Shown piece after piece: positions 15,330-51,397 of a stretch of DNA of 64,000 nt. The stretch is from Pseudovibrio exalbescens DSM 16456. GTDB taxonomy: Bacteria > Pseudomonadota > Alphaproteobacteria > Rhizobiales > Stappiaceae. The position numbers and the translations under genes were made by a program. The notes beneath the pieces are model-generated. The model was not told where the DNA came from, made no database searches, and was given only the letters and a program-made list of their open reading frames with translations. The stretch covers positions 124,001-188,000 of the forward strand of contig NZ_AUGS01000001.1 in the NCBI RefSeq assembly GCF_000422785.1. Direction: 5' to 3'. Every line of letters starts with the position of its first letter. Within the stretch, counting starts at the first letter, position 1.

Positions 15330-15551
15330 TGCAGATATGCAAAAAACGTATATCTCGTGATCCAAACTGTCTATGAGGCAGGGCGTCGCACACGGATGAA
15401 TTGAAATCGCAGGATCCTGCGATTTGTTTCCGTGGCGCTGTAAATTCTATTGGTATATCAGAATGGATATGGCTTTGGATAACTACCTCTAGGTGACGGG
15501 AAAAGAGACACCTAGAGGTTCATTTCATGTTGTTGCGAGAGAATCGCAATG

Positions 15552-39001: not shown

Positions 39002-39078
39002 GGGCCTGTAGCTCAACTGGTTAGAGCCGTCCGCTCATAACGGACTGGTTGGGGGTTCAAGTCCCTCCGGGCCTACCA
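39002..39078 (+). tRNA. tRNA with CAU anticodon (Ile2 or elongator Met)
   Basis: A 77-base cloverleaf including an encoded CCA: acceptor GGGCCTG/CGGGCCT (G1 pairs U72 by wobble), D arm with TAGCTCA...GGTTAGAGC, anticodon stem GTCCG/CGGAC around CTCATAA, and T arm GGGGG TTCAAGT CCCTC. The CAU anticodon could be the lysidine-modified isoleucine tRNA or elongator methionine tRNA; it is not initiator tRNA since the C1-A72 mismatch is absent. Its 3' part from 39060 is also the left attachment core of the mobile element, and the gene remains complete after integration. Confidence 0.9.
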
Positions 39079-40289
39079 CCTTCCCATTGCGGCGTTGAAA
39101 ATGCTGCATAATTTCCTCCAATAGTCCCACCGATGAAGTTGAACGGAAAAAGTGGGACATTTTTCGATCCTTGTTGAGCTATTTCTCGTTGTTCAAACGC
39201 TGCTTTTGCCAGGTGCTTTTGTTCGGCTGCTCTTGTATAGAAGCTCGCCATTTTGGGGTCAGTCCAACCAAATACGGCCATTAGCTGTCGTTCGGAAGCT
39301 CCTGCTTCCGCGAGGTTGGTGGCCGCGGTTTTCCTGATGCCATGACTGGTACAGTTCCGCAGGCCAGCCGCATCGCACCAATCGCGCATTTTGTTTCCAA
39401 AGCCGTTCGCGGTAAACGGTTTGCCTTGTTCTGTAAGGATGAATGTATTTTGGGTTCTGGGAACGCGCGCCAGAATCTCCTTGAGCGCCGGAGGGATGGG
39501 CAGTGTTAACTTGCCAGCGGCCCCCTTCTTGCTATCTCCTTTGGTTGGCACGAAGGTTATGCAATCTTCAGTAATGTTCGACCAACCAAGCTTTACAATG
39601 TCTGATTTTCGGATTCCCAAATTTATAAAGATTTCAAATGCTAAGCGAGCCTTAGTGCCAATCGGATGCTGGCTTCGAAACTGAGCTACCTCTTTTTTTG
39701 TCCAAGCGTGATAGCCAGCCGACTCATTCATGTATTTGATCCCCTTTGCAGGGTTACTTTCAATGGGGAAGCGCTTCTTGATGCTGTCTGCCTCCATCGC
39801 CCAGTAATAAAGCTTCTTCACGTATTTCACGAGCTTGTCAGCAGCTGCGGGTGTCTTCCTTTTTTGAAGCTGATGACCTTCCAAGTGTTCTTTTTCAAGC
39901 CTTTGAAAAGGAAGGCCACCAACAAAATCACAATAGTTGTCGAGGACACTTCTTCGATCTGCTTGGGTGCTTGGGGCGTATTCGTGGAATGTTTTTGATT
40001 TGTAAAATTGCTCGACCAACCAACCCAAGGTGCCTGGCTCCCAAGCCGTGCGATTGTTTGGTTGTTGCTTGAGTTTCCCAGAAACCACTGCATGGTATTC
40101 CTCAGAAAACTCGCGGGTTAGGTTGCCATTTTGATCATAAATCTCAGCCCTGACCCTGTGCTTCTTCGCACCGGGCAGGCGAATGTAAACACGAATGTTC
40201 CCATGTCGGTCAACATCAACAGAAGTGTATTTGAAGGGGAGGGCCCTGCCTCTACCCGATTGTTTTGTCGAAAGGGTTTTCTTTTTCAT
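39057..40289 (-). CDS. int: Tyrosine recombinase (site-specific integrase)
   Basis: A 410-residue phage-type integrase that inserts and excises the element. The catalytic residues are Arg227 (NLGIRKSD), a Lys in the beta-hairpin near 250, His316 and Arg319 (HGIRK), Trp342 in the place of the second His, and the nucleophile Tyr351 (SFYTRA). An N-terminal arm-binding domain and a SAM-like core-binding domain (GTLGWLVEQFYKS...) precede it. The ATG at 40289 has GAGGGA eight bases upstream and overlaps the excisionase-like gene. The last nine sense codons (402-410, WEGGRPGGT) lie inside the attachment core and the stop codon lies just beyond it, in the tRNA. Confidence 0.95.
   Translation of the reverse strand: MKKKTLSTKQSGRGRALPFKYTSVDVDRHGNIRVYIRLPGAKKHRVRAEIYDQNGNLTREFSEEYHAVVSGKLKQQPNNRTAWEPGTLGWLVEQFYKSKTFHEYAPSTQADRRSVLDNYCDFVGGLPFQRLEKEHLEGHQLQKRKTPAAADKLVKYVKKLYYWAMEADSIKKRFPIESNPAKGIKYMNESAGYHAWTKKEVAQFRSQHPIGTKARLAFEIFINLGIRKSDIVKLGWSNITEDCITFVPTKGDSKKGAAGKLTLPIPPALKEILARVPRTQNTFILTEQGKPFTANGFGNKMRDWCDAAGLRNCTSHGIRKTAATNLAEAGASERQLMAVFGWTDPKMASFYTRAAEQKHLAKAAFEQREIAQQGSKNVPLFPFNFIGGTIGGNYAAFSTPQWEGGRPGGT
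39060..39086 (+). repeat. Left attachment core attL (27-bp direct repeat)
   Basis: Begins AGTCCCTCCGGG and ends CACCTTCCCA, identical to 51371-51397. It covers the 3' half of the tRNA T arm, the acceptor 3' strand, CCA and eight bases beyond. Confidence 0.95.
39148..39159. repeat. Inverted repeat AAAAGTGGGACA, left copy (possible integrase arm site)
   Basis: AAAAGTGGGACA here and its reverse complement TGTCCCACTTTT at 51328-51339 lie 61 and 31 bases inside the two cores. Paired sites at the ends of an element are typical for integrase arm-type binding. Confidence 0.5.
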
Positions 40290-40506
40290 TCGATTGTCCC
40301 TCGGCATTGCCCTCTTTCAATGCCTGCCAGCAAGCCGTGATTTCCGCAACATCCCATCTTCGAAGCCCCCTGACTTTAGACCCGTATGGCATCAGCCCGA
40401 GTTTTATCCAGTTGTCGAATGTTGAAGGGGAAATCTCTAGAAGCAGGGCTGCGCTTTCTCGCGTAACGGCGATACGCGACAGTGATTGGTTTTCAATTCT
40501 ATGCAT
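40252..40506 (-). CDS. Excisionase/AlpA-like helix-turn-helix protein
   Basis: An 84-residue protein with a MerR-like winged helix (VTRESAALLLEISPSTFDNWIKLGLMPYGSKVRGLRRWDVAEITACWQAL) as found in AlpA and excisionases, followed by a charged tail. It lies immediately upstream of the integrase and overlaps it by 38 bases, the normal place for a recombination directionality factor. It would favour excision or control int. No strong ribosome site precedes the ATG. Confidence 0.82.
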   Translation of the reverse strand: MHRIENQSLSRIAVTRESAALLLEISPSTFDNWIKLGLMPYGSKVRGLRRWDVAEITACWQALKEGNAEGQSNEKENPFDKTIG

Positions 40507-40566: not shown

Positions 40567-40743
40567 CTAGTGTTTCGCGGTCGAAGCATTCGAACTGTTC
40601 GCCAGCTCATCCATGCGCTGACGAATGCAGCGGATAACCTCACTATTCAACGACGAGCCGTTTTTGTGAGTTTCCAGTTCCAGAAAGTGTTTTGCGTCGT
40701 CCGGAAGGCGGACCAATAGCTTCGGCCAATTTTGCTTGTTCAA
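40567..40743 (-). CDS. Small Arc-type ribbon-helix-helix DNA-binding protein (TTG start)
   Basis: A 58-residue protein: start NKQNWPKLLVRLPDDAK, then HFLELETHKNGSSLNSEVIRCIRQRMDEL, a clear Arc/MetJ ribbon-helix-helix (strand KLLVRLP, helix A, helix B with SSLNSEVIRCI), and a short polar tail. The start is TTG at 40743 with AGGAG eight bases upstream, a strong site. It should bind DNA as a dimer of dimers. It is divergent from the RHH-HTH fusion at 40857, whose first 45 residues are homologous in pattern, so the two may share or compete for the operators between them. Confidence 0.85.
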   Translation of the reverse strand: MNKQNWPKLLVRLPDDAKHFLELETHKNGSSLNSEVIRCIRQRMDELANSSNASTAKH

Positions 40744-40856
40744 CCCAATAACTCCTAAATTGCGGTGTATAGAATCATAGTGCTATTATGAAGCGATAGC
40801 ATGATCGCATTATGGGATTATTGTCTAGATAGCACTCTACTAGTATCAACAGAAGC
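40744..40856. promoter_or_regulatory. Divergent regulatory region with candidate operators
   Basis: Between the two RHH genes lie GCGATAGCATGATCGC (40793-40808, arms GCGAT/ATCGC), ATAGTGCTAT (40777-40786) and a related ATAGCACT near 40834. Repeated ATAGC/GCTAT half-sites in a 113-base divergent promoter fit binding by ribbon-helix-helix proteins. Confidence 0.55.
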
Positions 40857-41717
40857 ATGATTGGATCGACTAAAGCTAAACAAAAAGAACAGTTTGTAGT
40901 GCGTTTGCCGGATGGCATGCGTGATAAGATCGCTTTGGCTGCAAAAGAAAATAACCGCTCGATGAATGCGGAAATAGTTGCGCGGCTCGAAATGACATTT
41001 GTTGCTCCTACTATTAGTAGGCTGAAATGGCTGTTAGAGACCATGGAGAGAGTGCTCGGTAATAGCAAGTTTTCCTTGTCTCGATTGGCCGAAGCCATTG
41101 GTGAAGAAACACCCTATCGACTAGAGAGAGTTTTTTCGGGAGCAGAAGAGCCCACATTTCGACTTTTGGATTCAATTGCTGAGTACTGCGCAGTCAACTC
41201 AGACTGGCTGAAACACGGTGACAGTGTGCCGTTTAAGGTTTGTGTTGAAGGAACGTATGATGAAGATTTCCTTGAGTTTCTGGTCTCCGATAAACCGAAA
41301 ACAATTCATGTGATTAGGGCTGATTCAGAAAAAGGTGAAGTTTGTGTTGTTAAACAATACGACGACCATGTCTGCACGACCATTCGTACCTATATCCACT
41401 TGAGCGATCATGTTGGAGCCACAGGTCAACGGCACCAAGTAGAACTCGCGAATACCAGTAAAAAACTGTACCGATATAGCGGGATATATAGCCGGGGTTG
41501 CATGATGCCAGATGAACAGTTTAGTAAATTGATAGCGGGCACAATTCACCCACTTCTGGCACTGAATGATGCAAGGTACTCAACTTGGTTTGATGATTGG
41601 TGGGACCCTCAAATGATAGCTAAAGTAACTAGAGAAAATGAGCCATGGAAAGGTTATCGAAAATTGGTCGAACGTGTTTTTGAAGAGTCTAAAGCCGCAG
41701 GACATATCAAAGCATAG
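40857..41717 (+). CDS. Arc-type RHH plus helix-turn-helix regulator with unknown C-terminal domain
   Basis: A 286-residue protein with three parts. Residues 9-48 (KEQFVVRLPDGMRDKIALAAKENNRSMNAEIVARLE) are an Arc-like ribbon-helix-helix. Residues 70-122 (SKFSLSRLAEAIGEETPYRLERVFSGAEEPTFRLLDSIAEYCAVNSDWLKHG) look like a Cro/C1 helix-turn-helix. The C-terminal part (125-286), with YDEDFLEFLVSDKPKTIHVIRADSEKGEVCVVKQY, is not recognised and may bind a ligand or partner. It probably regulates the element. The ATG at 40857 has a weak ribosome site (AGAAG). Confidence 0.8.
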   Translation: MIGSTKAKQKEQFVVRLPDGMRDKIALAAKENNRSMNAEIVARLEMTFVAPTISRLKWLLETMERVLGNSKFSLSRLAEAIGEETPYRLERVFSGAEEPTFRLLDSIAEYCAVNSDWLKHGDSVPFKVCVEGTYDEDFLEFLVSDKPKTIHVIRADSEKGEVCVVKQYDDHVCTTIRTYIHLSDHVGATGQRHQVELANTSKKLYRYSGIYSRGCMMPDEQFSKLIAGTIHPLLALNDARYSTWFDDWWDPQMIAKVTRENEPWKGYRKLVERVFEESKAAGHIKA

Positions 41718-41871: not shown

Positions 41872-42738
41872 ATGAATAAGCTAGTTAAAAGAGTGACCGT
41901 GCAGTTCTACTCTATCGATGCCGGTGAAGGTTTCTTGGAGAGGTTCGCCACGGACTACACAACAAATAAGGTGAACTCAAATACTGCTAGAATTCTTACT
42001 TTGCGAGCGAAAAAGCATCTAGTAAAAATCTCAGGTGAAATCGTATTGGGCGGCGTCAAAGCGTACTTTGCAACAGTCGTCAAAGAGAGAAATACCTGGC
42101 AAACAAAAGCCACAAGTGATGGTAAAATATCCGGGATCCAGCTTAACCAAGGAATAATTGGCGACCCATATTACTTTTGTGTGGTGCCGGAGAAGAAGAT
42201 TGTGTTGGGCTTTACATCAGGTCCTAGCGGCAGCTTAAAAACTGTTGCCGCTACAATGCTAGACCAGTTTAACAGCGATCGAGTGAACCGCATTAAACTT
42301 GATCTAATACCTAAGAAGAAAGAATTCTCAGCGTTAAAGGAACTTCCAGATGACAGTATTCTTCACTTTAATATTAAACCATTGTACCTAACCGACATAA
42401 CTGATGATGCCCCTAAAATTTTGAAAGACTTGAGTTCTGCACCTTACATTGAAAATAGTATGCAGCTTTCACTTCAGCTCGAAATAGGCAGTTCGGCAGA
42501 GCAAAACCTTTCTAAGGAAACAGCTCTCGAGATCATAAGCTACTTGTCAGAACATGAAAGCTGCTCTTTGTTGAAGGTCAAGGGAATGGACGATCGAGGC
42601 AATAAAATCAGCCTCGACTTCGGTAGTGCGTTTGTGAACCATAAAACGGATATCTGGACCCGCGACAAGTTCATCAAAGAAGAGCAGGCTTGGGAAGTGC
42701 TGTCAGAAGCGCTAGGTAGCTACCTTGAGCATCATTAG
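41872..42738 (+). CDS. Unrecognised 288-residue protein beside the Hachiman genes
   Basis: A soluble protein without signal or membrane segments. It starts MNKLVKRVTVQFYSID, has an early KAYFATVVKERNTW region, PYYFCVVPEKKIVLGFTSGPSGSLKTVAATML in the middle and a final half with helical and beta segments (HFNIKPLYLTDITDDAPKILKDLSSAPYIENSMQLSLQLEI). I do not recognise a family. The layout (a short beta start, then a segment about its own expression or sensing, then mixed fold) recalls accessory proteins found in defence islands, which is inference only. The gene is AT-rich, and its end overlaps the end of hamB by 4 bases. Confidence 0.75.
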   Translation: MNKLVKRVTVQFYSIDAGEGFLERFATDYTTNKVNSNTARILTLRAKKHLVKISGEIVLGGVKAYFATVVKERNTWQTKATSDGKISGIQLNQGIIGDPYYFCVVPEKKIVLGFTSGPSGSLKTVAATMLDQFNSDRVNRIKLDLIPKKKEFSALKELPDDSILHFNIKPLYLTDITDDAPKILKDLSSAPYIENSMQLSLQLEIGSSAEQNLSKETALEIISYLSEHESCSLLKVKGMDDRGNKISLDFGSAFVNHKTDIWTRDKFIKEEQAWEVLSEALGSYLEHH

Positions 42739-45248
42739 AAATCTTCATTCAGTAAGCGGCGCACTTCTTTTTCAGTTATTGGATGAAGATCCTCCAATGC
42801 CCCGTCCTTTAGGAACCTCGCCAAGTCCGAGGAGCTAACTAGTTCCCAGGTGCTTGGTAGCAGGACGTCGATTTCTTTGGCAGCGTCCCTAGACAAGCCC
42901 AAGTTTATCAGATTAATCATTCGCTCATCGCAAGCACCAATCTCAATTAATGTGTGGAGGCGGAAATTCAGTTCATCTATGCCTCTTGCCGCCAATACGT
43001 TATCTGACAAAATCTGATAACACTTGAGTGCATTCGCTAGGCGGAATGTTATGTCGTTATTGATCGTTTTTATTACGTTCCTTACGCATCCGTTGACTAC
43101 ATCCTCTGCTTTTTTGTTTTTGTCCTCAATTTCCCATTCAATCCTTTTAGCAATTATCTCTTTAAGGCTGTTTCCTTGAAGCCATTTTTGCGCAAGCCAG
43201 CATATACGTTCCAACGAGCGCCCATCGGTTGGTACATAAACACCGCATTCCCGCAGCTTCTCAGATATTCTCAATAGGGTGCGGTATAGATCCGCAGATT
43301 TTGGATGTGGTAGCTTCCATTCCTCCGGGGCTTCTAAGTTTTCAAGGAAGCTGAAAAGTCTATTTTGCTGGATGTATCCAATTGTTGGATTGGCTTCTAG
43401 AGTGAAGCTAGTAACCTTAAGGGCTTTGAATGCCGCCTTAGCACTTTTTGAGAGATTGCGCTTTTCAGTATCACTTAAGTTTAGCTCCTTAGCGCTGAGG
43501 GTTGTGCTCAAACCGTCGCGCTCGTATTCCTTTATCAGCTTGTTAGCTATCGTATATATTCTGTATTGATCATTCTCATCGCTAGGTCGGCGACCGTTTA
43601 ACGCTTCTAAAACTAGCTCAAGTTCTTCATTAAGGGTCTTGAAATAGGTTGGTATCTGTTGCTTTTCTTCTTCATTTTTATCGAAGTAATCAGTAAAATT
43701 CCATTCATCTGGCTTGACAAGGAATATGTTTCCGGAAAAGTGCCGCATCATTCTTCCTGCGCGACCTGTAATGTTTCTAACTTTTACATCCTCGATACGC
43801 TCGGGTGGGGCGTACTGTACTAGTTGTGCAGGATTGTTAAGAAAAAGGTTTTTTGCCGGTAAGTTTACGCCCTCTGCAAGCGTGCCAGTACAAACTATAA
43901 AGTCGATCTTCCCTTCCTTAGCAAAACCCTCAATCATGGTGCGAAGATTGGGAGGCAGCGGTCCATAGTGAAATGCGACCCCATGCCTTAGGTTTTCTGC
44001 CAATGAGAACTTATCATGAACAAAGTGTTCGATATATCCTGCGGCTTCCTCAAGTTCATCAGATGTTGCGAAATCTGCGCCTTTCGCTGTCTTTACTAAC
44101 TCTGCGATTTCATTTGCCATCTTCTCGCAGTCTGATGTCCGATTTCGATACACAATGTTGCTATCACCTTGTCCTAATCTGAAAACAATGTCTGCAAATC
44201 TGGTCCCGGAGAAGCCTTTAGGAATCCTTTTTGCGGATCGTCTATATTGGCGAGAAATCAGCAAATCCCGCCCTTTCGGGACGACGTTCATCAAGATTTT
44301 TGCAACTGGCGAGTGAGTGGTTATCTTCTGTTTAAATTCAGTCTCGGAGAATATGGAGGAAAAGGAAGTGAGATAGGCCTGCGACGGCATGCTTATTATT
44401 ATTTGAGGGAAACTGTCCTCCAGAAGCCTTTGAATTGTAAGGTGAAGAAGGACACCTCTGCTCTTGTCGGAAATGTTATGCGCTTCATCAATGAATAGAT
44501 AATTGAAAGTTATGTCACCCTGTAGAAGCAACTCATGTAATCGCTCCTGAGTCATCACGAAAAAGGTTTTGTCCGAAAACTCCACTCCTCTTGGGACAGT
44601 GCAGACTTCTATTGTATCGGTTCCTACTAACTCGTAGATTTGCGCAGCAACTTCAGAAATCAAGGCGCGTGTTGGAACAATGATCGCGACAAAAGCTCCT
44701 TCGCTTTTCTTAACTTCCTCAACTAGATAGTTCAGAATAATAAAGGTCTTACCTGCAGAGGTCGGGGCAGATGTGATTAAATCGCAACCGGATGATAGAT
44801 CTGTCCATAATGAACGCTGATAGTCCGTTAGCGGAAATGAAAGTTGCTCTACTGTGTTTAATTTTTGCCGAAACTCCATTTGCGCTTCTGTATAAAAGCT
44901 CAATCTAAATTGGAGGTCCGGATATCGTTGCCTGATAAGGTCGATATTCGGGAAGTCACCAGAGTTTACAAAAATGTTATTGGCAATCAAAGCGGTTTGA
45001 GGAAATTTTTGCCCGAACAAATCTAGTAGCATCGATAGTAGGATCGCGCCTTCTTCGACATGAGAGGGCAGTTCGGATTTGTAAAAAACTTGAATGGCGC
45101 TCAGTAGCTGCTTTAGTTCTCGTTGGCTTACCTCGCACTCTTGTCCTGAGAGGTTATCGACATAGGCATCAAACAGCTTCTGGCTTGCTTGCTCGTAGCC
45201 TTCACTAATTTCAATTTGGTGGGCCAGTCGCTGGTAGAAATCACTCAT
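42735..45248 (-). CDS. hamB: Hachiman helicase HamB (SF2, Ski2-like)
   Basis: An 837-residue superfamily 2 DNA helicase. Motif I is TSAPTSAGKT (159-168), motif Ia VPTRAL, motif II DEAH (254-257), motif III SMPS, motif V TGTLAEGVNLPAK (454-466) and motif VI ITGRAGRM (493-500), followed by a long helical C-terminal region typical of Ski2-like helicases. In Hachiman, HamB forms a complex with the nuclease HamA, moves on DNA and releases the nuclease when phage infection is sensed. Its start overlaps the hamA stop by four bases (ATGA), so the two are translationally coupled. Confidence 0.88.
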   Translation of the reverse strand: MSDFYQRLAHQIEISEGYEQASQKLFDAYVDNLSGQECEVSQRELKQLLSAIQVFYKSELPSHVEEGAILLSMLLDLFGQKFPQTALIANNIFVNSGDFPNIDLIRQRYPDLQFRLSFYTEAQMEFRQKLNTVEQLSFPLTDYQRSLWTDLSSGCDLITSAPTSAGKTFIILNYLVEEVKKSEGAFVAIIVPTRALISEVAAQIYELVGTDTIEVCTVPRGVEFSDKTFFVMTQERLHELLLQGDITFNYLFIDEAHNISDKSRGVLLHLTIQRLLEDSFPQIIISMPSQAYLTSFSSIFSETEFKQKITTHSPVAKILMNVVPKGRDLLISRQYRRSAKRIPKGFSGTRFADIVFRLGQGDSNIVYRNRTSDCEKMANEIAELVKTAKGADFATSDELEEAAGYIEHFVHDKFSLAENLRHGVAFHYGPLPPNLRTMIEGFAKEGKIDFIVCTGTLAEGVNLPAKNLFLNNPAQLVQYAPPERIEDVKVRNITGRAGRMMRHFSGNIFLVKPDEWNFTDYFDKNEEEKQQIPTYFKTLNEELELVLEALNGRRPSDENDQYRIYTIANKLIKEYERDGLSTTLSAKELNLSDTEKRNLSKSAKAAFKALKVTSFTLEANPTIGYIQQNRLFSFLENLEAPEEWKLPHPKSADLYRTLLRISEKLRECGVYVPTDGRSLERICWLAQKWLQGNSLKEIIAKRIEWEIEDKNKKAEDVVNGCVRNVIKTINNDITFRLANALKCYQILSDNVLAARGIDELNFRLHTLIEIGACDERMINLINLGLSRDAAKEIDVLLPSTWELVSSSDLARFLKDGALEDLHPITEKEVRRLLNEDF

Positions 45249-46144
45249 CCTTCAATTCCCATATAACCAATAAACTCATTCGTAAGCTCTTTAACGCAGG
45301 TAAACGGAAGCATTATTAGGGTTGTATTGGTTATGCTTATGTTATTACTTTCGATCTGTTTGAAGTAATGATTTATATAAGTTTTTGAGATCCTAATGTA
45401 CTCTCTAATGAATTCTTTTTTGGAATATTTTGAAGAAAATAAATTGCTCTCTGTAAAGCCAATAAAGCAAGGTGAGTGTATAAGTTCTTGCACATTATTG
45501 TCTAGGAATGGGTTTAGTATTCGCAAAATATCATCTTTCGATGCATCATCTATATTTTCAAAATCGATATGGCTATCTAGCAAGTCAAACTCTTCTTCGT
45601 AGGCTGATTGAGCCGTGCCTATAGAGGTTGCAGCCTTTGTAGCCGCTGTTTTGAAACTCTTGTGTAGCTTGGATTCTCCCAAATACAGACGCAATTTTCC
45701 GTCGAGAAACTGACCATGCACTGCGTCAGCTCCAAAAACTGGCATTCTGCGGTCCATTTTCATTGAGACTTTGCTTAGCAATTTGGGTGCTTTAAGGTAT
45801 ACATCTAAGATCGTAAAGAGGATAAGCTCTCCCAATTCTCCCTGAGCGGTATGCTTGCTCAGCTTTCGAACAGCTTTGTTGAAGAGCGCCTTCGCAGCTC
45901 CAGGTCTATCCACGCCCAACTTTCTTTCAATTTCTGAGCACGAAAAGACGAAATTCGATAGTAACCCGTTCTTGACCGCCTCAAAAAAGGCAAGACGGTT
46001 TTGTGTTCCGCTCTCGAATGGCAAATAGATCAGGAGCGTGCTGACTTCACGGCCATCGGCCAAATTTAATTTTACATCAACTTGTTTCAGTACGTTTTTG
46101 ATATCTTCCGCATTCTTAAGTTGCGGATGAAGCTGGTGATTCAT
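45245..46144 (-). CDS. hamA: Hachiman nuclease HamA (DUF1837)
   Basis: A 299-residue protein of the DUF1837/HamA family. The core is AQGELGELILFTILDVYLKAPKL (Glu103, Glu106), then VFGADAVHG (Asp140, His143) and LRLYLGESKLHKS (Glu157, Lys159). This is a PD-(D/E)xK-like nuclease arrangement: acidic residue, acidic residue and lysine. HamA is the DNA-cleaving effector of Hachiman. It lies directly upstream of hamB. Codon use is AT-rich, as in hamB, which indicates the pair was acquired together. The ATG at 46144 lacks a strong ribosome site. Confidence 0.88.
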   Translation of the reverse strand: MNHQLHPQLKNAEDIKNVLKQVDVKLNLADGREVSTLLIYLPFESGTQNRLAFFEAVKNGLLSNFVFSCSEIERKLGVDRPGAAKALFNKAVRKLSKHTAQGELGELILFTILDVYLKAPKLLSKVSMKMDRRMPVFGADAVHGQFLDGKLRLYLGESKLHKSFKTAATKAATSIGTAQSAYEEEFDLLDSHIDFENIDDASKDDILRILNPFLDNNVQELIHSPCFIGFTESNLFSSKYSKKEFIREYIRISKTYINHYFKQIESNNISITNTTLIMLPFTCVKELTNEFIGYMGIEG

Positions 46145-46722: not shown

Positions 46723-47507
46723 GACCTTGCCCTAAGGTTTTATCCCGTTTTGGGTTCGCTCCAGCGGTCTTGGATTGCGGTATTTGGTGCGGTAGGGGTG
46801 GGGTGCGGTGCGGAGCCATTCCGGCTGCGTGGTACCGCAACACGTCGCGTGTTGATAGTCTGAGCGAACTCGGCGGGTGTCAGCCAGCCGAGGCCGGAAT
46901 GTGGTCGATGATCGTTGTAGGCACTGCGCCAGTTTGAAAGCGCTGATCGGGCATGTGGCAGCGACACGAAGAGCGTTTCATTCAGAAACTCGTCTCGCAG
47001 CCGCCCATTGAAGTTTTCGATGAAGGCGCTCTGGATCGGTTTACCTGGCGCGATGTAGTGACACTCGATTTTAACCCGGTCCGTCCATTGCAAGATCGCG
47101 TTGCTGGTGAATTCGCTCCCGTTTTCACTGACGATCATCTTAGGCTTGCCACGCTTCTCGATGATCCGATCCAGCTCACGAGCAACCCGAAGGCCCGAGA
47201 GCGATGTATCGGCGACAAGGCCCAAGCATTCCCTGGTGCAATCATCGACGATCGTTAGCACCCGGAACCTACGGCCATCGGTTAGTTGAACCGACACGAA
47301 GTCCAGCGACCAGCGATCATTGGCCGTCATCGGGACCCGCATTGGCGCACATGTGCCGATCGCTCGTTTCCGACTGCCGTGCCTACGTGACGTCAGCGTC
47401 TCCTCCCGATACAGCCGAAAGAGCTTCTTGTGGTTCACACGGTGCCCTTCGCGTTTGAGCAGCACGTGGAGGCGTCGATAACAAAAGCGACGGCGCTCAT
47501 GCGCCAC
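46723..47507 (-). mobile_element. Truncated IS3-family element (orfB remnant)
   Basis: The frame 46740-47507 encodes an IS3-family transposase B part: [47 protein letters not shown], and the DDE region [15 protein letters not shown]...[16 protein letters not shown]. In IS3 transposases the first DDE residue is the Asp of WSLDF, the second the Asp usually in SDNG; here it is SENG, Glu for Asp. orfA and the start of orfB are missing. The right-hand (3') end near 46723 has TGACCTTGCCCTAAGG, probably one terminal repeat. The element is therefore inactive. Confidence 0.85.
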
Positions 47508-47675: not shown

Positions 47676-47963
47676 TCAGAGTTCTAGGACGAGTTTGTTG
47701 CCCGTCGCTTGGTTCCTCATCGGTACCTCTATCCCATCCAGCTTGTACTCTCGCCGTTGGTATGTGTTCACCGAGAATCTTACGCCATCCGATGTCTCGA
47801 AAAGACAACGCAGGGCTGTGTTCCTGCCCCAGACGGCGGCAATGAAGGTGGCCTCAACGGCTCCTTTTGGAGCGTTGTCATAAGGGTAGTCGGTGACCTT
47901 GATGCCTGCTTCTCGGGCTTGAGCCGGGCTATAGCTGGTTTTAGGTAGTGTTGTAGTGGTCAT
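47676..47963 (-). CDS. Small hypothetical protein of the mobilisation operon
   Basis: A 95-residue soluble protein (MTTTTLPKTSYSPAQAREAGIKVTDYPYDNAP..., with GAVEATFIAAVWGRNTALRCLFETSDGVRFSVNTYQR). AAGGA lies eight bases before the ATG. It follows the relaxase stop by 12 bases in the same direction, so it belongs to the mob operon. No family was recognised; its compact beta-rich look could suit an accessory or regulatory protein. Confidence 0.65.
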   Translation of the reverse strand: MTTTTLPKTSYSPAQAREAGIKVTDYPYDNAPKGAVEATFIAAVWGRNTALRCLFETSDGVRFSVNTYQRREYKLDGIEVPMRNQATGNKLVLEL

Positions 47964-47974
47964 CTGTGGGTTCC

Positions 47975-49552
47975 TTATCTTTCCATTCCGGTGGTTGGTG
48001 TGCGCGGCTTCATTGCAAGCCGCCGTTTATCTTGCTCTGGATCTGGGCGATTGAGTTCATGACGTTGTTGAGGGTGTCCGAGTGCTCGTTGTAGCTGGCT
48101 GGATCTGTCAGCAAGCCGAGCAATCCCGCGTTGAACTGAGCTTGCAAGTTGATTGAGGCGCTTAGACAGGTTTCCAGCCGTTCCAGTCGTTCGTTCAGCA
48201 AACCTGTCGAGCGTTTCTCCAAGTCGCTGAGCGCCTCGTTGGAACGCACTGAGGCGTCGGTCAATTGTTGCACGCAGTCCAACAATTCTCGCTCCAGGGG
48301 GCTTAAGTGTTCCATGGATTACTCCTTCATGTCTTTGCACGTGATGGTGGTTTGATTGGGGGTGCAGCGGGCCAGGGTGCCGTTTGTCAGGTTGAGCAGC
48401 AGGTATCCGTTCTGGCTGTCGTCCAGCGCGCTTTGAAGGCTCTTGGCTGTTCGCCATTCCTGATAGCTGGTTGCCCAGAACCAGGTTGCGCCCAGCACCA
48501 ACAGCAGTGAAAATAATACGGCCAGAGCCAACAGGAGCGGGGACCATTTGCGCGCCTGATGATAAAGGCCGAGCTGCTTTCTCAAGTGGTTCAGCTCTGC
48601 TTCGATCTCGGTCTTGATTGCGCGATGCTGAGCGGCCAAATCGCGCGCGATTGTAGTCTGCGCGTTTTTGAGTATGGCTTTGATATCGGTCTCGAAGCTC
48701 GTCGAGGCTGATGCCATCAAGTCGGCGTGGTGCTGTTCGGCGGCTTGCATGTTGGCTTTCAAGCGTTCGCTGAGCAGTGGCTTCTCGGGTCCATCCTTCA
48801 TGGAAGAGGCTTCCTTTCAAACGCCATCGGGTGTCGGTCTCTGGATCTTTCACCGTGAGGTAGGTCTTGCCTGCACGGGGGATTTCAAAACCTGCGGATT
48901 GCAAGGTTTCAATCATCTCTGGGCGGGTCGTGATGCGGCCCGCGACCACAAGCTCGCTGATCCAGTCCTGGATCTCTTCGCGGCTTTGCGCTCGTTGCTT
49001 GCGTTCGGTTGCGACCTTGGTTTCACGGGCGCGCGACGGATCTTCGGGGTCAGCCCAGCCATGCTCTTTGTTGAGCATGTCACGAAGGGCATCCATGGCT
49101 TTTAGGTAGCCAGGAGGAGCAATGTTCAGGCTGTTCCCGGTGGTAAGCTCCAGGCGCGGTGTGCAGAAGTGAAGCTCGACGCGGTTCTCATGGGTATGGC
49201 GCACCCACAAGACATCGTATTGATCCCGCTCCAATCCGGCAAAGGCCAGGGTTTCAAACCGGTCCATTACTGTGCGCTGCTGTGCTTCGCTGGGCGCGTC
49301 GCTCTTGTCGAAGCTTAAAACCCCTGCGCGATAGCTCCATTTGTTGCGGCTGCTGTCGATGAGCAGTTTTGTCCGCTCGGGATCTCCTGCAAGAACCTCC
49401 GGCAAAGGATCTCGCTCCTTCAATACCGGCTTGCCAGCCTCATCACGAACCAGGTTTCTGTTCTCGTCATAGGCCAGCACCTTGTTGGCCACCAGGTAGT
49501 CAACCGGGGCGGAGCCGCCGCCTTGGCCGTTCTTGAAGAACTTAATCAGCAT
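47975..49552 (-). CDS. MOB-HEN (ColE1 MbeA-type) relaxase
   Basis: A 525-residue relaxase that nicks oriT and starts conjugative transfer. The N-terminal MLIKFFKNGQGGGSAPVDYLV and the signature RHTHENRVELHFCTPRLEL (His119, then His-Glu-Asn at 121-123) mark the HEN subfamily of MOBP relaxases, as in ColE1 MbeA. The catalytic Tyr should lie early; Tyr19 in VDYLV is a candidate. The long C-terminal half (about 275-525) is low-complexity, Arg/Gln-rich and also encodes mobB- and mobD-like genes in another frame. The ATG at 49552 has GAGGAG seven bases upstream and overlaps mobC by 11 bases. Confidence 0.9.
   Translation of the reverse strand: MLIKFFKNGQGGGSAPVDYLVANKVLAYDENRNLVRDEAGKPVLKERDPLPEVLAGDPERTKLLIDSSRNKWSYRAGVLSFDKSDAPSEAQQRTVMDRFETLAFAGLERDQYDVLWVRHTHENRVELHFCTPRLELTTGNSLNIAPPGYLKAMDALRDMLNKEHGWADPEDPSRARETKVATERKQRAQSREEIQDWISELVVAGRITTRPEMIETLQSAGFEIPRAGKTYLTVKDPETDTRWRLKGSLFHEGWTREATAQRTLESQHASRRTAPRRLDGISLDELRDRYQSHTQKRADYNRARFGRSASRNQDRDRSRAEPLEKAARPLSSGAQMVPAPVGSGRIIFTAVGAGRNLVLGNQLSGMANSQEPSKRAGRQPERIPAAQPDKRHPGPLHPQSNHHHVQRHEGVIHGTLKPPGARIVGLRATIDRRLSAFQRGAQRLGETLDRFAERTTGTAGNLSKRLNQLASSVQRGIARLADRSSQLQRALGHPQQRHELNRPDPEQDKRRLAMKPRTPTTGMER
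48010..48315 (-). CDS. MbeD/MobD-like protein nested in the relaxase gene
   Basis: A 101-residue helical protein (MEHLSPLERELLDCVQQLTDASVRSNEALSDLEKRSTGLLNERLERLETCL) read in another frame within the 3' part of the relaxase gene. AAGGAG lies six bases before the ATG, and the ATG follows the mobB-like stop by one base pair spacing of three. ColE1 plasmids have the same nested MbeD, a helical protein linked to entry exclusion and mobilisation. The strong ribosome site makes the overlap real. Confidence 0.8.
   Translation of the reverse strand: MEHLSPLERELLDCVQQLTDASVRSNEALSDLEKRSTGLLNERLERLETCLSASINLQAQFNAGLLGLLTDPASYNEHSDTLNNVMNSIAQIQSKINGGLQ
48319..48801 (-). CDS. MbeB/MobB-like membrane-anchored protein nested in the relaxase gene
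   Basis: A 160-residue protein in the same second frame as the mobD-like gene. It has an N-terminal part with helices (KPLLSERLKANMQAAEQHHADLMASASTSFETDIKAILKNAQTTIARDLAAQHRAI), one membrane helix (WSPLLLALAVLFSLLLVLGATWFWA) and a short outer domain with two cysteines. AGGAAG lies eight bases before the ATG. The order relaxase, MbeB, MbeD with overlap copies ColE1. MbeB stabilises the relaxosome and may link it to the membrane. Confidence 0.8.
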   Translation of the reverse strand: MKDGPEKPLLSERLKANMQAAEQHHADLMASASTSFETDIKAILKNAQTTIARDLAAQHRAIKTEIEAELNHLRKQLGLYHQARKWSPLLLALAVLFSLLLVLGATWFWATSYQEWRTAKSLQSALDDSQNGYLLLNLTNGTLARCTPNQTTITCKDMKE

Positions 49553-49997
49553 CGCCAGGCTCCTCGCTCTGGTGCAGTGCCAGCAAGGCGCCAAGCTGCC
49601 GGTCGATGGCGGTCAGTTCCGTGATGATCTGCAGGCCGTTGAGCTGACGCGCTTCGCCCGCCGAGGTGGCCGTGTTTACAGCGCGGGCAATCTGGTTGAG
49701 GTTGGTGCCGATGCGGCTCAGCTCAGCAACCAGGCGCGGGTCCACCTTGGGTGCAGCACGACGCCGGGTCGGCTTGACGAGGCCCAGCGTTGCTCTGAGC
49801 AAGGCGGAGATGGTAACGCCCGCCGCCTCAGCTTGCGCTTTCAGCTTGTCTTTTTCCTGTGCCGTACAGCGCAAAACGACCGTCTCTGCGAGCTGGCGTT
49901 TGGGCGCTTTGGCGGGGTTCGAAGGGGAGGCTTGCCACCCCTCGCAAGGCTCCGTGTCGTATGACATGGGTCGCCTTGCTCTCAACTGATCGCCCAT
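49542..49997 (-). CDS. mobC: Mobilisation protein MobC/MbeC
   Basis: A relaxosome accessory protein, about 151 residues, with an N-terminal ribbon-helix-helix-like part (RQLAETVVLRCTAQEKDKLKAQAEAAGVTISALLRATLGL) and the MobC signature VDPRLVAELSRIGTNLNQIARAVN. It binds oriT and helps the relaxase. The ATG at 49997 has GGAG seven bases before it and overlaps the repC-like stop by 16 bases; a second ATG at 49967 with AAGG is also possible. Confidence 0.88.
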   Translation of the reverse strand: MGDQLRARRPMSYDTEPCEGWQASPSNPAKAPKRQLAETVVLRCTAQEKDKLKAQAEAAGVTISALLRATLGLVKPTRRRAAPKVDPRLVAELSRIGTNLNQIARAVNTATSAGEARQLNGLQIITELTAIDRQLGALLALHQSEEPGDAD

Positions 49998-51097
49998 GAT
50001 CCAACTCCATCGCCTTTGAGGTTTTTGAAGACAACGCGGGAGAGAAACTGCGGCTCGAAGGTCGCCCTTTGGATAAGTTTCCTGAAGCATGCCGCCGCAT
50101 GGCGAACGTGCGCTTTGTGACCTTTAGGGCACTGGGTGTTCTTGTAGATGATCGAAACCAAGATGGCGGCTGTAACGCGGTTCAGGCGATGACAGGCCTG
50201 CGACCAAAGCTCGTCGCTGATGCGCAAGTCTCGCCTGAGCAAGTTCGCGGCCTCAATGAAGTTCGCCTGACTGTCCCCGCCAAGGAAACGCATGTTCTCC
50301 CGCATATCCTTGTGAGCGTTCTCAATGCATTGCTGAAAAGAAAACTGCACAGCGTTTTGCCTACAGTTCTGAATAAGTGTTTTTTGATGAGTGTTATATC
50401 GTGCGGACGTTTTGTCCGTCCGGGACGGCGCTTTTGTCTGTCCCGCTTCAAAGGCGTCAACAGACTTGCCCACACCCTGCTTTTTGAAAGACGACAGGAG
50501 GGAAGAGAAAGCTTCTATGATCTTTTTGAGCTGCTCAACGGCGCGAACACGCGAGAGGCGGCCAAACGGCAAGACCTCCAGGGCGCGCTCAATTGCCTCG
50601 GAAACGCGCAGGGCTCGGATCTCGCTAAAGAGGTGCTTTGCTTCCGCGCGCGCCCTGTCAAGCTCTGCAGATGCAGCCTCTCGCTGCCGGGCGATACGCA
50701 GAAGGTTGGGAACTCTGTGATCAATCAGTGGCTGCAGATTGACCCCGGCAGCCCAGATGATGCGCTGCTCACCTGCTTGTTCTCTTTGGCCAGCACGCCG
50801 ACTTTTGGGTGCGTTTGTCTTTAACAGCCAACCTGCCTTCGCGAGGCGGTTTTCTGCACGTGTGACAGCCCGCTCATCAAGAAAGAGCTCCTGGGCAATG
50901 ACTGGCAGCCGTTGCCAAACCGCGCAGATGCGACCTGCACGGAAGTCCTCGTCGCGAACCTTTAGAATGTAATGCTTGATGACCTTGATATCGGTTCCGC
51001 TCAAACCTGCAGCGCTTCCTTGGGCGTCGATCAGCCCCAAAAGGTCAGAGCGCGTGAACTCTTGGGGAAGGCCCCCATGGGTGAGCGTTACGCACAT
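49982..51097 (-). CDS. repC: RepC-like replication initiator
   Basis: A 371-residue protein similar in layout to RepC of alphaproteobacterial repABC plasmids. The N-terminal part has a winged helix (LSGTDIKVIKHYILKVRDEDFRAGRICAVWQRLPVIAQELFLDERAVTRAENRLAKAGWLLKTNA) and the AAGVNLQPLI...RIARQREAASAELDRARAEAKHLFSEI region; the C-terminal part SDELWSQACHRLNRVTAAILVSIIYKNTQCPKGHKAHVRHAAACFRKLIQ matches the RepC end. No repA or repB is present. In repABC plasmids the origin is in the repC gene; the AT-rich part near 50340-50420 could play that role. The ATG at 51097 has GGAGG seven bases upstream. It heads the mob operon. Confidence 0.8.
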   Translation of the reverse strand: MCVTLTHGGLPQEFTRSDLLGLIDAQGSAAGLSGTDIKVIKHYILKVRDEDFRAGRICAVWQRLPVIAQELFLDERAVTRAENRLAKAGWLLKTNAPKSRRAGQREQAGEQRIIWAAGVNLQPLIDHRVPNLLRIARQREAASAELDRARAEAKHLFSEIRALRVSEAIERALEVLPFGRLSRVRAVEQLKKIIEAFSSLLSSFKKQGVGKSVDAFEAGQTKAPSRTDKTSARYNTHQKTLIQNCRQNAVQFSFQQCIENAHKDMRENMRFLGGDSQANFIEAANLLRRDLRISDELWSQACHRLNRVTAAILVSIIYKNTQCPKGHKAHVRHAAACFRKLIQRATFEPQFLSRVVFKNLKGDGVGSWAIS

Positions 51098-51187
51098 ACC
51101 GCACCTCCATCAAGAAGGAGCGGCGCGCTGGTTGAAGTTAACCGCGCGATAGGATAGTTTCGAGATGCAATTGCATTCTTAAATGGT

Positions 51188-51218
51188 CCGTCGAGCGGGG
51201 TGGCAGCCCCCTCGGCGG
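51188..51218. other. GC-rich hairpin, candidate oriT
   Basis: CCGTCGAGCGGGG, loop TGGCAG, CCCCCTCGGCGG. The arrangement resembles the inverted repeat near the nic site of ColE1-like oriT (CGGGG...GCAGCCC). ATTTTTG follows, so a + strand terminator is the alternative. Confidence 0.35.
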
Positions 51219-51327
51219 ATTTTTGCTTTTCAAGAACCCGATTATGTATGTCCCCAATGGGCTGGAGAGATTGATAAAGTGGGGCAGTTGCATTTGTAAG
51301 CCATTGTAATCTATTGGGAAGTGTTTT

Positions 51328-51370: not shown

Positions 51371-51397
51371 AGTCCCTCCGGGCCTACCACCTTCCCA
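51371..51397 (+). repeat. Right attachment core attR (27-bp direct repeat)
   Basis: Exact copy of 39060-39086 without the rest of the tRNA, which marks the far end of the element. Confidence 0.95.

Follow-up and report, generated by a model that had tools for sequence, protein, structure and literature searches.

A complete two-gene Hachiman system (HamAB) is very probably the cargo of a mobilizable element integrated at a tRNA-Met gene of Pseudovibrio exalbescens DSM 16456. The element lies in a stretch of 64,000 nucleotides, the window, whose first letter is position 1 of all coordinates given here. The Hachiman genes themselves are ordinary, and the pair alone adds little. As far as sequence comparison goes, related elements in the same bacterial family match or resemble the present one in their ends and mobilisation genes and differ in defence cargo, initiators and integration sites. 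Since the related elements in sister species carry other defence systems, the carrier matters more than the defence genes.

The pair consists of hamA (45245..46144, minus strand), which encodes an effector nuclease of 299 amino acids, and hamB (42735..45248, minus strand), which encodes a sensor helicase of 837 amino acids. The original prediction, which had proposed a search with HamA and HamB profiles, named the pair Hachiman and noted that the two genes overlap; the overlap is confirmed and measures 4 nt. In PADLOC, HamA matches PDLC00152 over residues 1-298 of 299 (E = 2.2e-138, 459 bits) and HamB matches PDLC00181 over residues 1-835 of 837 (E = 0, 1265 bits). Moreover, HamA matches Pfam PF08878 (4.6e-37, 128 bits), and HamB contains the Pfam domains DEAD and Helicase_C. 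These near end-to-end PADLOC matches, together with Pfam, bear out the prediction, and we regard the pair as almost certainly Hachiman. HamA has an intact D-GExK motif, composed of Asp140 and GESK at residues 156-159, which places Glu157 and Lys159 as predicted; D-GEXK is the canonical name of the HamA motif in the available text of PMC12799240. The helicase motifs of HamB are intact as well (GKT at 166, DEAH at 254 and GRAGR at 495).

A scan of genome contigs found no close relatives of HamA. Among 87 genomes of the family, HamA is present in five, including its own, and HamB has no match outside its own genome at E 1e-60; at the same threshold HamB is found in two of 385 genomes of the class, again including its own. 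Plasmids contain no DNA-level match to hamAB. In the PDB, HamA of the window has no relative at E 0.001, and the chain labelled HamB (1174 amino acids) aligns with HamB of the window over residues 365-507 only. A better alignment, over residues 39-793, is obtained with chain 9wh1_B, which bears the label 'DNA polymerase theta (Helicase domain only)' and is probably a HamB-like protein under another name.

The insertion at the tRNA-Met gene (anticodon CAT; 39002..39078, plus strand; ARAGORN and Rfam RF00005) measures 12.3 kb. It is delimited by two identical copies of a 27-bp repeat, attL (39060..39086) and attR (51371..51397), which copy the 3' end of the tRNA and are spaced 12,311 bp apart. 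This is the sole exact direct repeat of at least 20 nt in the 64-kb window, besides which one short inverted match was seen near 15404. An Rfam scan detected the tRNA only, plus one sub-threshold match on the same tRNA. Read from the integrase end, the genes between the repeats encode the integrase, a small helix-turn-helix (HTH) protein, a possible ribbon-helix-helix protein, ArcL and ORF288 (both on the plus strand), HamB, HamA, an IS3-type remnant, a 95-amino-acid ORF, the relaxase with two inner frames, MobC and RepC. Thus, the repeats and the Pfam matches bear out the predicted 12.3-kb tRNA-integrated element with an integrase, a relaxase and a RepC-like initiator. The tyrosine integrase (39057..40307, minus strand; PF00589, 1e-20) has C-terminal codons that overrun the end of the tRNA. 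It is followed by the small HTH protein (40252..40506, minus strand), which matches PF12728 (HTH_17) at E = 0.0073 and 17 bits, below the cut-off of 27 bits, and is a probable excisionase; AlpA-like is our own label for it. The neighbouring reading frame (40567..40758, minus strand; TTG start uncertain) was judged by eye to encode a possible ribbon-helix-helix protein.

A search for a clean empty site found none. In the closest genome (G027) about 11 kb of unrelated genes separate tRNA-Met from the next shared gene, following the likeness to the window, and the tRNA-Met site is therefore a variable spot. The likeness itself extends 47 nt beyond the repeat, into the left end of the element (L068:2543-13663, G027:C20). 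When seven ORFs of the interval were compared with PADLOC, one phospholipase-effector match (35.6 bits) was the only one obtained.

The mobilisation genes form a module on the minus strand. The MbeA-like relaxase, mobA (47975..49594; PF03432), matches NF047848 at 4.9e-44 and 151 bits, under the 500-bit cut-off. Two accessory mobilisation frames lie inside mobA, at 48010..48315 (45-56% identical frames in relatives) and 48319..48801 (27-58%); because relatives keep both at 27-58% identity, they look like real genes. A MobC/NikA-like relaxosome protein is encoded at 49542..49967 (PF21983, 7e-15; PF05713, 1.6e-8). The module had been predicted to be of ColE1 type. The MbeA-like relaxase with overlapping frames agrees with this, but neither inner-frame protein matches the MbeB or MbeD families of Pfam, and we therefore call the module ColE1-like, not proven ColE1-type. 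The 13 genes scanned between the repeats, which comprise all but the small ORF at 40567-40758, include no match to a coupling or pore protein, and a helper element would therefore be required for transfer. We looked for an oriT and did not identify one.

The RepC-like initiator (49982..51097, minus strand) has both the RepC_N (PF03428, 3.9e-11) and the RP-C_C (PF11800, 1.8e-8) domain above the Pfam cut-offs. It scores 52 bits against the NCBI model of RepABC RepC, whose cut-off is 150 bits. Neither repA nor repB lies upstream of repC, where only 273 bp precede the right repeat, and none of the scanned element genes matches ParA or ParB in Pfam. The AT content of repC peaks at 60% between nucleotides 701 and 800; in p42d, according to the accessible part of PMC3155836, the origin is contained in a central, AT-rich portion of repC that spans positions 450 to 850. 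The same part of that paper states that all known repABC replicons have an antisense RNA between repB and repC. The repC leader of the window contains, in antisense orientation, a hairpin with a T run (51185..51221, plus strand; fold z = -4.0), which is a candidate end of a counter-transcribed RNA. Its motif is present in four of the five RepC-like loci: the window, L033, L035 and, more loosely, the repC fragment of L005; it is absent in L034. With a loose version of the pattern, one match each was obtained in L006, L008, L020 and L025; the remainder of the hairpin is missing there, and we took these matches as chance. A search for a promoter of an antisense RNA found none, Rfam contains no match to an RNA in the leader, and the terminator scan did not call this hairpin and instead called another one, at chance level. 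Antisense control of RepC is plausible, and we consider it rather probable that RepC works after excision.

We then used RepC and the relaxase as queries for related elements. A RepC search of the 87 family genomes gave matches in 25 at E 0.001, and full-length relatives in four, including its own. The other three, all beside tRNA-Arg, are those of P. axinellae DSM 24994 (G014, 64% identity), P. japonicus KCTC 12861 (G020, 62%) and P. flavus RKSG542 (G018, 49%); G025 has a fragment of 46 residues with 63% identity. The remaining weak matches (best E 2.4e-9) are probably ordinary RepC proteins of RepABC systems. At E 1e-25 a RepC profile recovered only the window's own protein from an even sample of 397 genomes of the order, in which the three known relatives were absent. 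The P. flavus element, bounded at tRNA-Arg by a 47-bp repeat, encodes an integrase, a protein resembling coupling proteins, and Gabija GajA/GajB; the latter lie at L035:7435-11377 (G018:C39), adjoined by a 683-amino-acid HATPase protein. The P. axinellae element is bounded by repeats as well and encodes an integrase, a coupling protein and a TrwC relaxase. Its cargo includes an ImmA/IrrE-type protein matching PD-Lambda-2_B, an Mrr-type endonuclease, a thymidylate-synthase-like protein and an amino acid:DNA transferase/thymine pyrophosphorylase. A full PD-Lambda-2 system was considered and rejected, as only the B part matched and the neighbours fit no other part. The cluster, which includes an HTH gene (L033:6698-11936, G014:C86), is a possible restriction system that relies on thymine modification; a literature search on thymine hypermodification found nothing on point. 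The P. japonicus locus has the same mobilisation genes after RepC, with an interrupted relaxase frame, and no direct repeat was found there.

The relaxase was detected at E 1e-20 in 12 of the 87 family genomes, including its own. Beyond the window and P. japonicus there are 13 matching places, from which eight loci were retrieved (seven of 20 kb and one of 11.6 kb), and seven of them were extended to about 40 kb. Five of the seven extended loci have a tRNA with direct repeats. Four are tRNA-Arg elements with repeats of 47-52 nt, found in G049 (23.0 kb), G062 (13.3 kb), G029 (15.1 kb) and G037 (16.3 kb), and the fifth is a tRNA-Met element of about 23.6 kb with a 16-nt repeat in G054. A second locus of G049 has no tRNA, and the one in G026 has tRNA-Arg without a repeat. 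By sequence and gene order, the G054 element is the closest counterpart of that in the window. It uses the same tRNA-Met, its integrase and small HTH protein are each 52% identical and the neighbouring AI-2E transporter is 54% identical; the order is tRNA-Met, integrase, small HTH protein, cargo, mobilisation genes, putative initiator and repeat. In seven of the eight relaxase loci a protein of 251-280 amino acids without detectable RepC likeness stands directly before mobC. It adjoins tRNA-Arg wherever this tRNA is present, an HTH was judged by eye, and we infer from its position that it is an initiator.

The integrase of G037 shares 77% identity with its counterpart in the P. flavus element. 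Comparison with the other integrases, and in the case of G049 also with XerD, identifies those of G049, G029 and G062 as tyrosine recombinases. The clearest sign of exchange, as far as such comparisons go, is the contrast between G049 and G029, whose integrases are 99% identical and whose cargo is different. Ten proteins of the G054, G049 and G029 cargo, picked by size and look, were scanned with PADLOC. G054 carries IetA and IetS. G049 carries PLD_Helicase, DUF1156_MTase, DUF499 and an Orf5/type IV restriction-type protein, and its fifth protein has weak helicase matches only. In G029 one of three proteins matches a helicase model at E 1.8e-300 and the other two have no match. A defence-model match is thus found in all six of the PADLOC-scanned elements, partly scanned ones included, out of eight with both ends defined; the weakest is that of P. 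axinellae. The two elements outside the cargo scan are G062 and G037, the latter with cargo that looks metabolic by eye. This choice of proteins makes the share of elements with defence cargo a biased estimate, and a defence enrichment is not established. The search of other alphaproteobacterial genomes suggested along with the original prediction has thus yielded related elements with other defence cargo (Gabija, IetAS and others).

Is the element of the window a single mobile unit? Its G+C content is 0.40-0.49 in the integrase, small regulators, ArcL, ORF288 and hamBA and 0.56-0.58 in the IS remnant, mobilisation genes and repC; the flanks have 0.56-0.57, and the 273 bp between repC and the right repeat 0.49. 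The pair is AT-rich against its surroundings, as had been predicted, but not alone in this, since the AT-rich stretch extends from the integrase through hamA. With these two ranges the element has the appearance of two joined halves, and the shift, from about 0.43 to 0.58, was placed at 46740, at the IS3-type transposase remnant (46740..47507, minus strand; rve domains, with truncation and IS3 label judged by eye). Next to it lies the 95-amino-acid ORF (47676..47963, minus strand), a reading frame with no match in the PHROG and NCBI profile scans. The shift speaks for a reading in which the AT-rich half, from integrase to hamA, is an island that became joined, at the IS remnant, to an older mob/rep half beside it, the two never moving as one. 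We consider this very unlikely, as the 27-bp repeats bracket both halves and G054 shows the same gene order between tRNA-Met and repeat. The IS remnant inside the element might also mark it as dead, with HamAB fixed in the chromosome and mobile genes that no longer work, and the P. japonicus relative, with its interrupted relaxase frame and undetected repeat, points the same way. In the window, however, the reading frames of integrase, relaxase, mobC, repC, hamA and hamB are all open and the 27-bp repeats are identical, and a dead remnant is unlikely. The reading we prefer is that the element is mobile now or was so recently, which we consider likely.

A further alternative concerns the two genes between the integrase end and hamB, which could be working parts of the Hachiman locus, as regulator or third component. 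ORF288 (41872..42738, plus strand) is convergent with hamB and the stop codons of the two overlap; moreover, a Hachiman locus of Bartonella has a third gene, HamC. On the other hand, ORF288 has no PADLOC match and no relative was detected in the other 86 family genomes, 384 class genomes, plasmids, phages or viral contigs. It has no assigned family: the nearly full-length match to DUF6731 (E = 0.0087) is below the cut-off, DUF6731 itself was found in none of 240 class genomes and in no paper, and a single-sequence structure prediction reached a mean pLDDT of 35.9. ArcL (40857..41717, plus strand), a name coined here, combines an Arc ribbon-helix-helix domain (PF03869, 1.8e-14) with a C-terminal part of about 230 amino acids and was assigned as a regulator; two PHROG families labelled partition ATPase match it over the Arc domain only. 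Copies about 45% identical lie near the integrase end of the four tRNA-Arg elements of G049, G062, G029 and G037, that is, in elements with other cargo, which argues against a dedicated role in Hachiman; none is present in the G054 element. Hence it is doubtful that ArcL and ORF288 belong to the Hachiman system, and we keep to the two-gene system as the cargo. The ArcL family with its conserved long C-terminal part is also found at L037:663-1490 and L091:19016-19840, and in P. japonicus ArcL lies upstream of two large proteins, one of which matches PDC-S05.

According to the available portion of PMC12278908, HamB senses DNA ends and HamA degrades phage and host DNA, which ends the infection together with the cell. 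By homology with published Hachiman work, HamB of the window would survey DNA, the entry of a single-stranded end upon phage infection or DNA damage would elicit ATP hydrolysis and HamA activity, and HamA would destroy phage and host DNA, so that the infection is aborted. The gene content suggests that the tyrosine recombinase and the small HTH protein would excise a circle, which RepC would maintain in its free form, perhaps restrained by an antisense RNA. MobC and the MbeA-like relaxase would then nick the circle, and the secretion system of another element would transfer it.

We infer from the related elements that their parts are exchanged like modules. More tentatively, an integrative mobilizable replicon lineage may act as a general anti-phage carrier in this marine alphaproteobacterial family. 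Its initiator/mobilisation end and its integrase end, the latter often accompanied by ArcL, would be fixed, and the defence modules between them (Hachiman, Gabija, IetAS, methyltransferase-helicase sets and the thymine-hypermodification/endonuclease-like cluster) would be swapped. Initiators, either RepC or an HTH protein unrelated to it, would be swapped at the other end. ArcL may link defence expression with mobility, and the element would have to avoid triggering a DNA-integrity sensor such as HamAB by its own nicking and single-stranded transfer. A set of elements whose ends match and whose defence cargo differs helps to study the exchange of defence modules and to locate new ones, which may lie in the slot between mobA and the integrase end. 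Such elements also raise the question of how an element that moves via nicked, single-stranded DNA coexists with a nuclease triggered by such DNA.

Hachiman has been found on other carriers. The 8.7-kb plasmid NZ_CP104898 of Bartonella sp. HY406 encodes mobQ, hamA, hamB and HamC and is typed 'non-mobilizable' by MOB-suite despite its annotated MobQ. As in the window, a relaxase gene adjoins hamA-hamB on a small alphaproteobacterial element; unlike the window, it is a free plasmid with a MobQ relaxase and HamC, and its HamA is 23% identical to that of the window. A second Hachiman-like pair of the genus, consisting of HamA and a HamB-like gene, is present in P. japonicus, inside a 51-nt direct repeat at tRNA-Phe that encloses only about 4.6 kb (L095:6523-11157, G020:C6). 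In an E. coli integrative and conjugative element (ICE) a dedicated position can hold Hachiman (PMC10121019, as excerpted), and the consulted part of PMC12479173 lists Hachiman among the defence systems of Streptococcus suis and also studies such mobile elements. A paper on Pseudovibrio genomes, PMC5959193, deals with genomic islands and with defence by restriction or CRISPR; when its main text was searched for the terms, no mention of Hachiman, relaxase or tRNA was found. The original prediction had called the arrangement undescribed. This stands for the combination of Hachiman, RepC and the ColE1-like module, of which a literature search, mostly short of full text, found no report, and the same search found no description of the element group; it does not stand for Hachiman beside a relaxase, known from Bartonella, or in an ICE, known from E. 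coli.

Compared with the solved HamAB (PDB 8VX9 set; PMC12278908, as far as accessible), the pair has the same order of a DUF1837 nuclease gene and, after it, a gene for a Ski2-like helicase, with the D-GExK and helicase motifs, and differs in the length of HamB, 837 amino acids versus 1174 in the solved chain. With repABC replicons, as described in the text seen of PMC3155836, the element shares the N- and C-terminal domains of RepC, an AT-rich stretch in repC and a possible antisense RNA before it, but it has no repA or repB there and the score of its RepC falls well short of the RepABC cut-off. A review of 2017 treats integrative mobilizable elements with initiators of the RepA/RepC type, and according to the sections available of that review (PMC5704250) no canonical element with its own relaxase had then been described in Proteobacteria. 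With the reviewed elements that have plasmid-type initiators, the one in the window shares an integrase, a relaxase, an initiator and the lack of its own mating pore; it differs from them by a RepC-like initiator with a conserved leader hairpin and by a ColE1-like module in an alphaproteobacterium. Thus, as the Bartonella plasmid and the E. coli ICE illustrate, Hachiman carriage on mobile elements is known; the new part here is the carrier.
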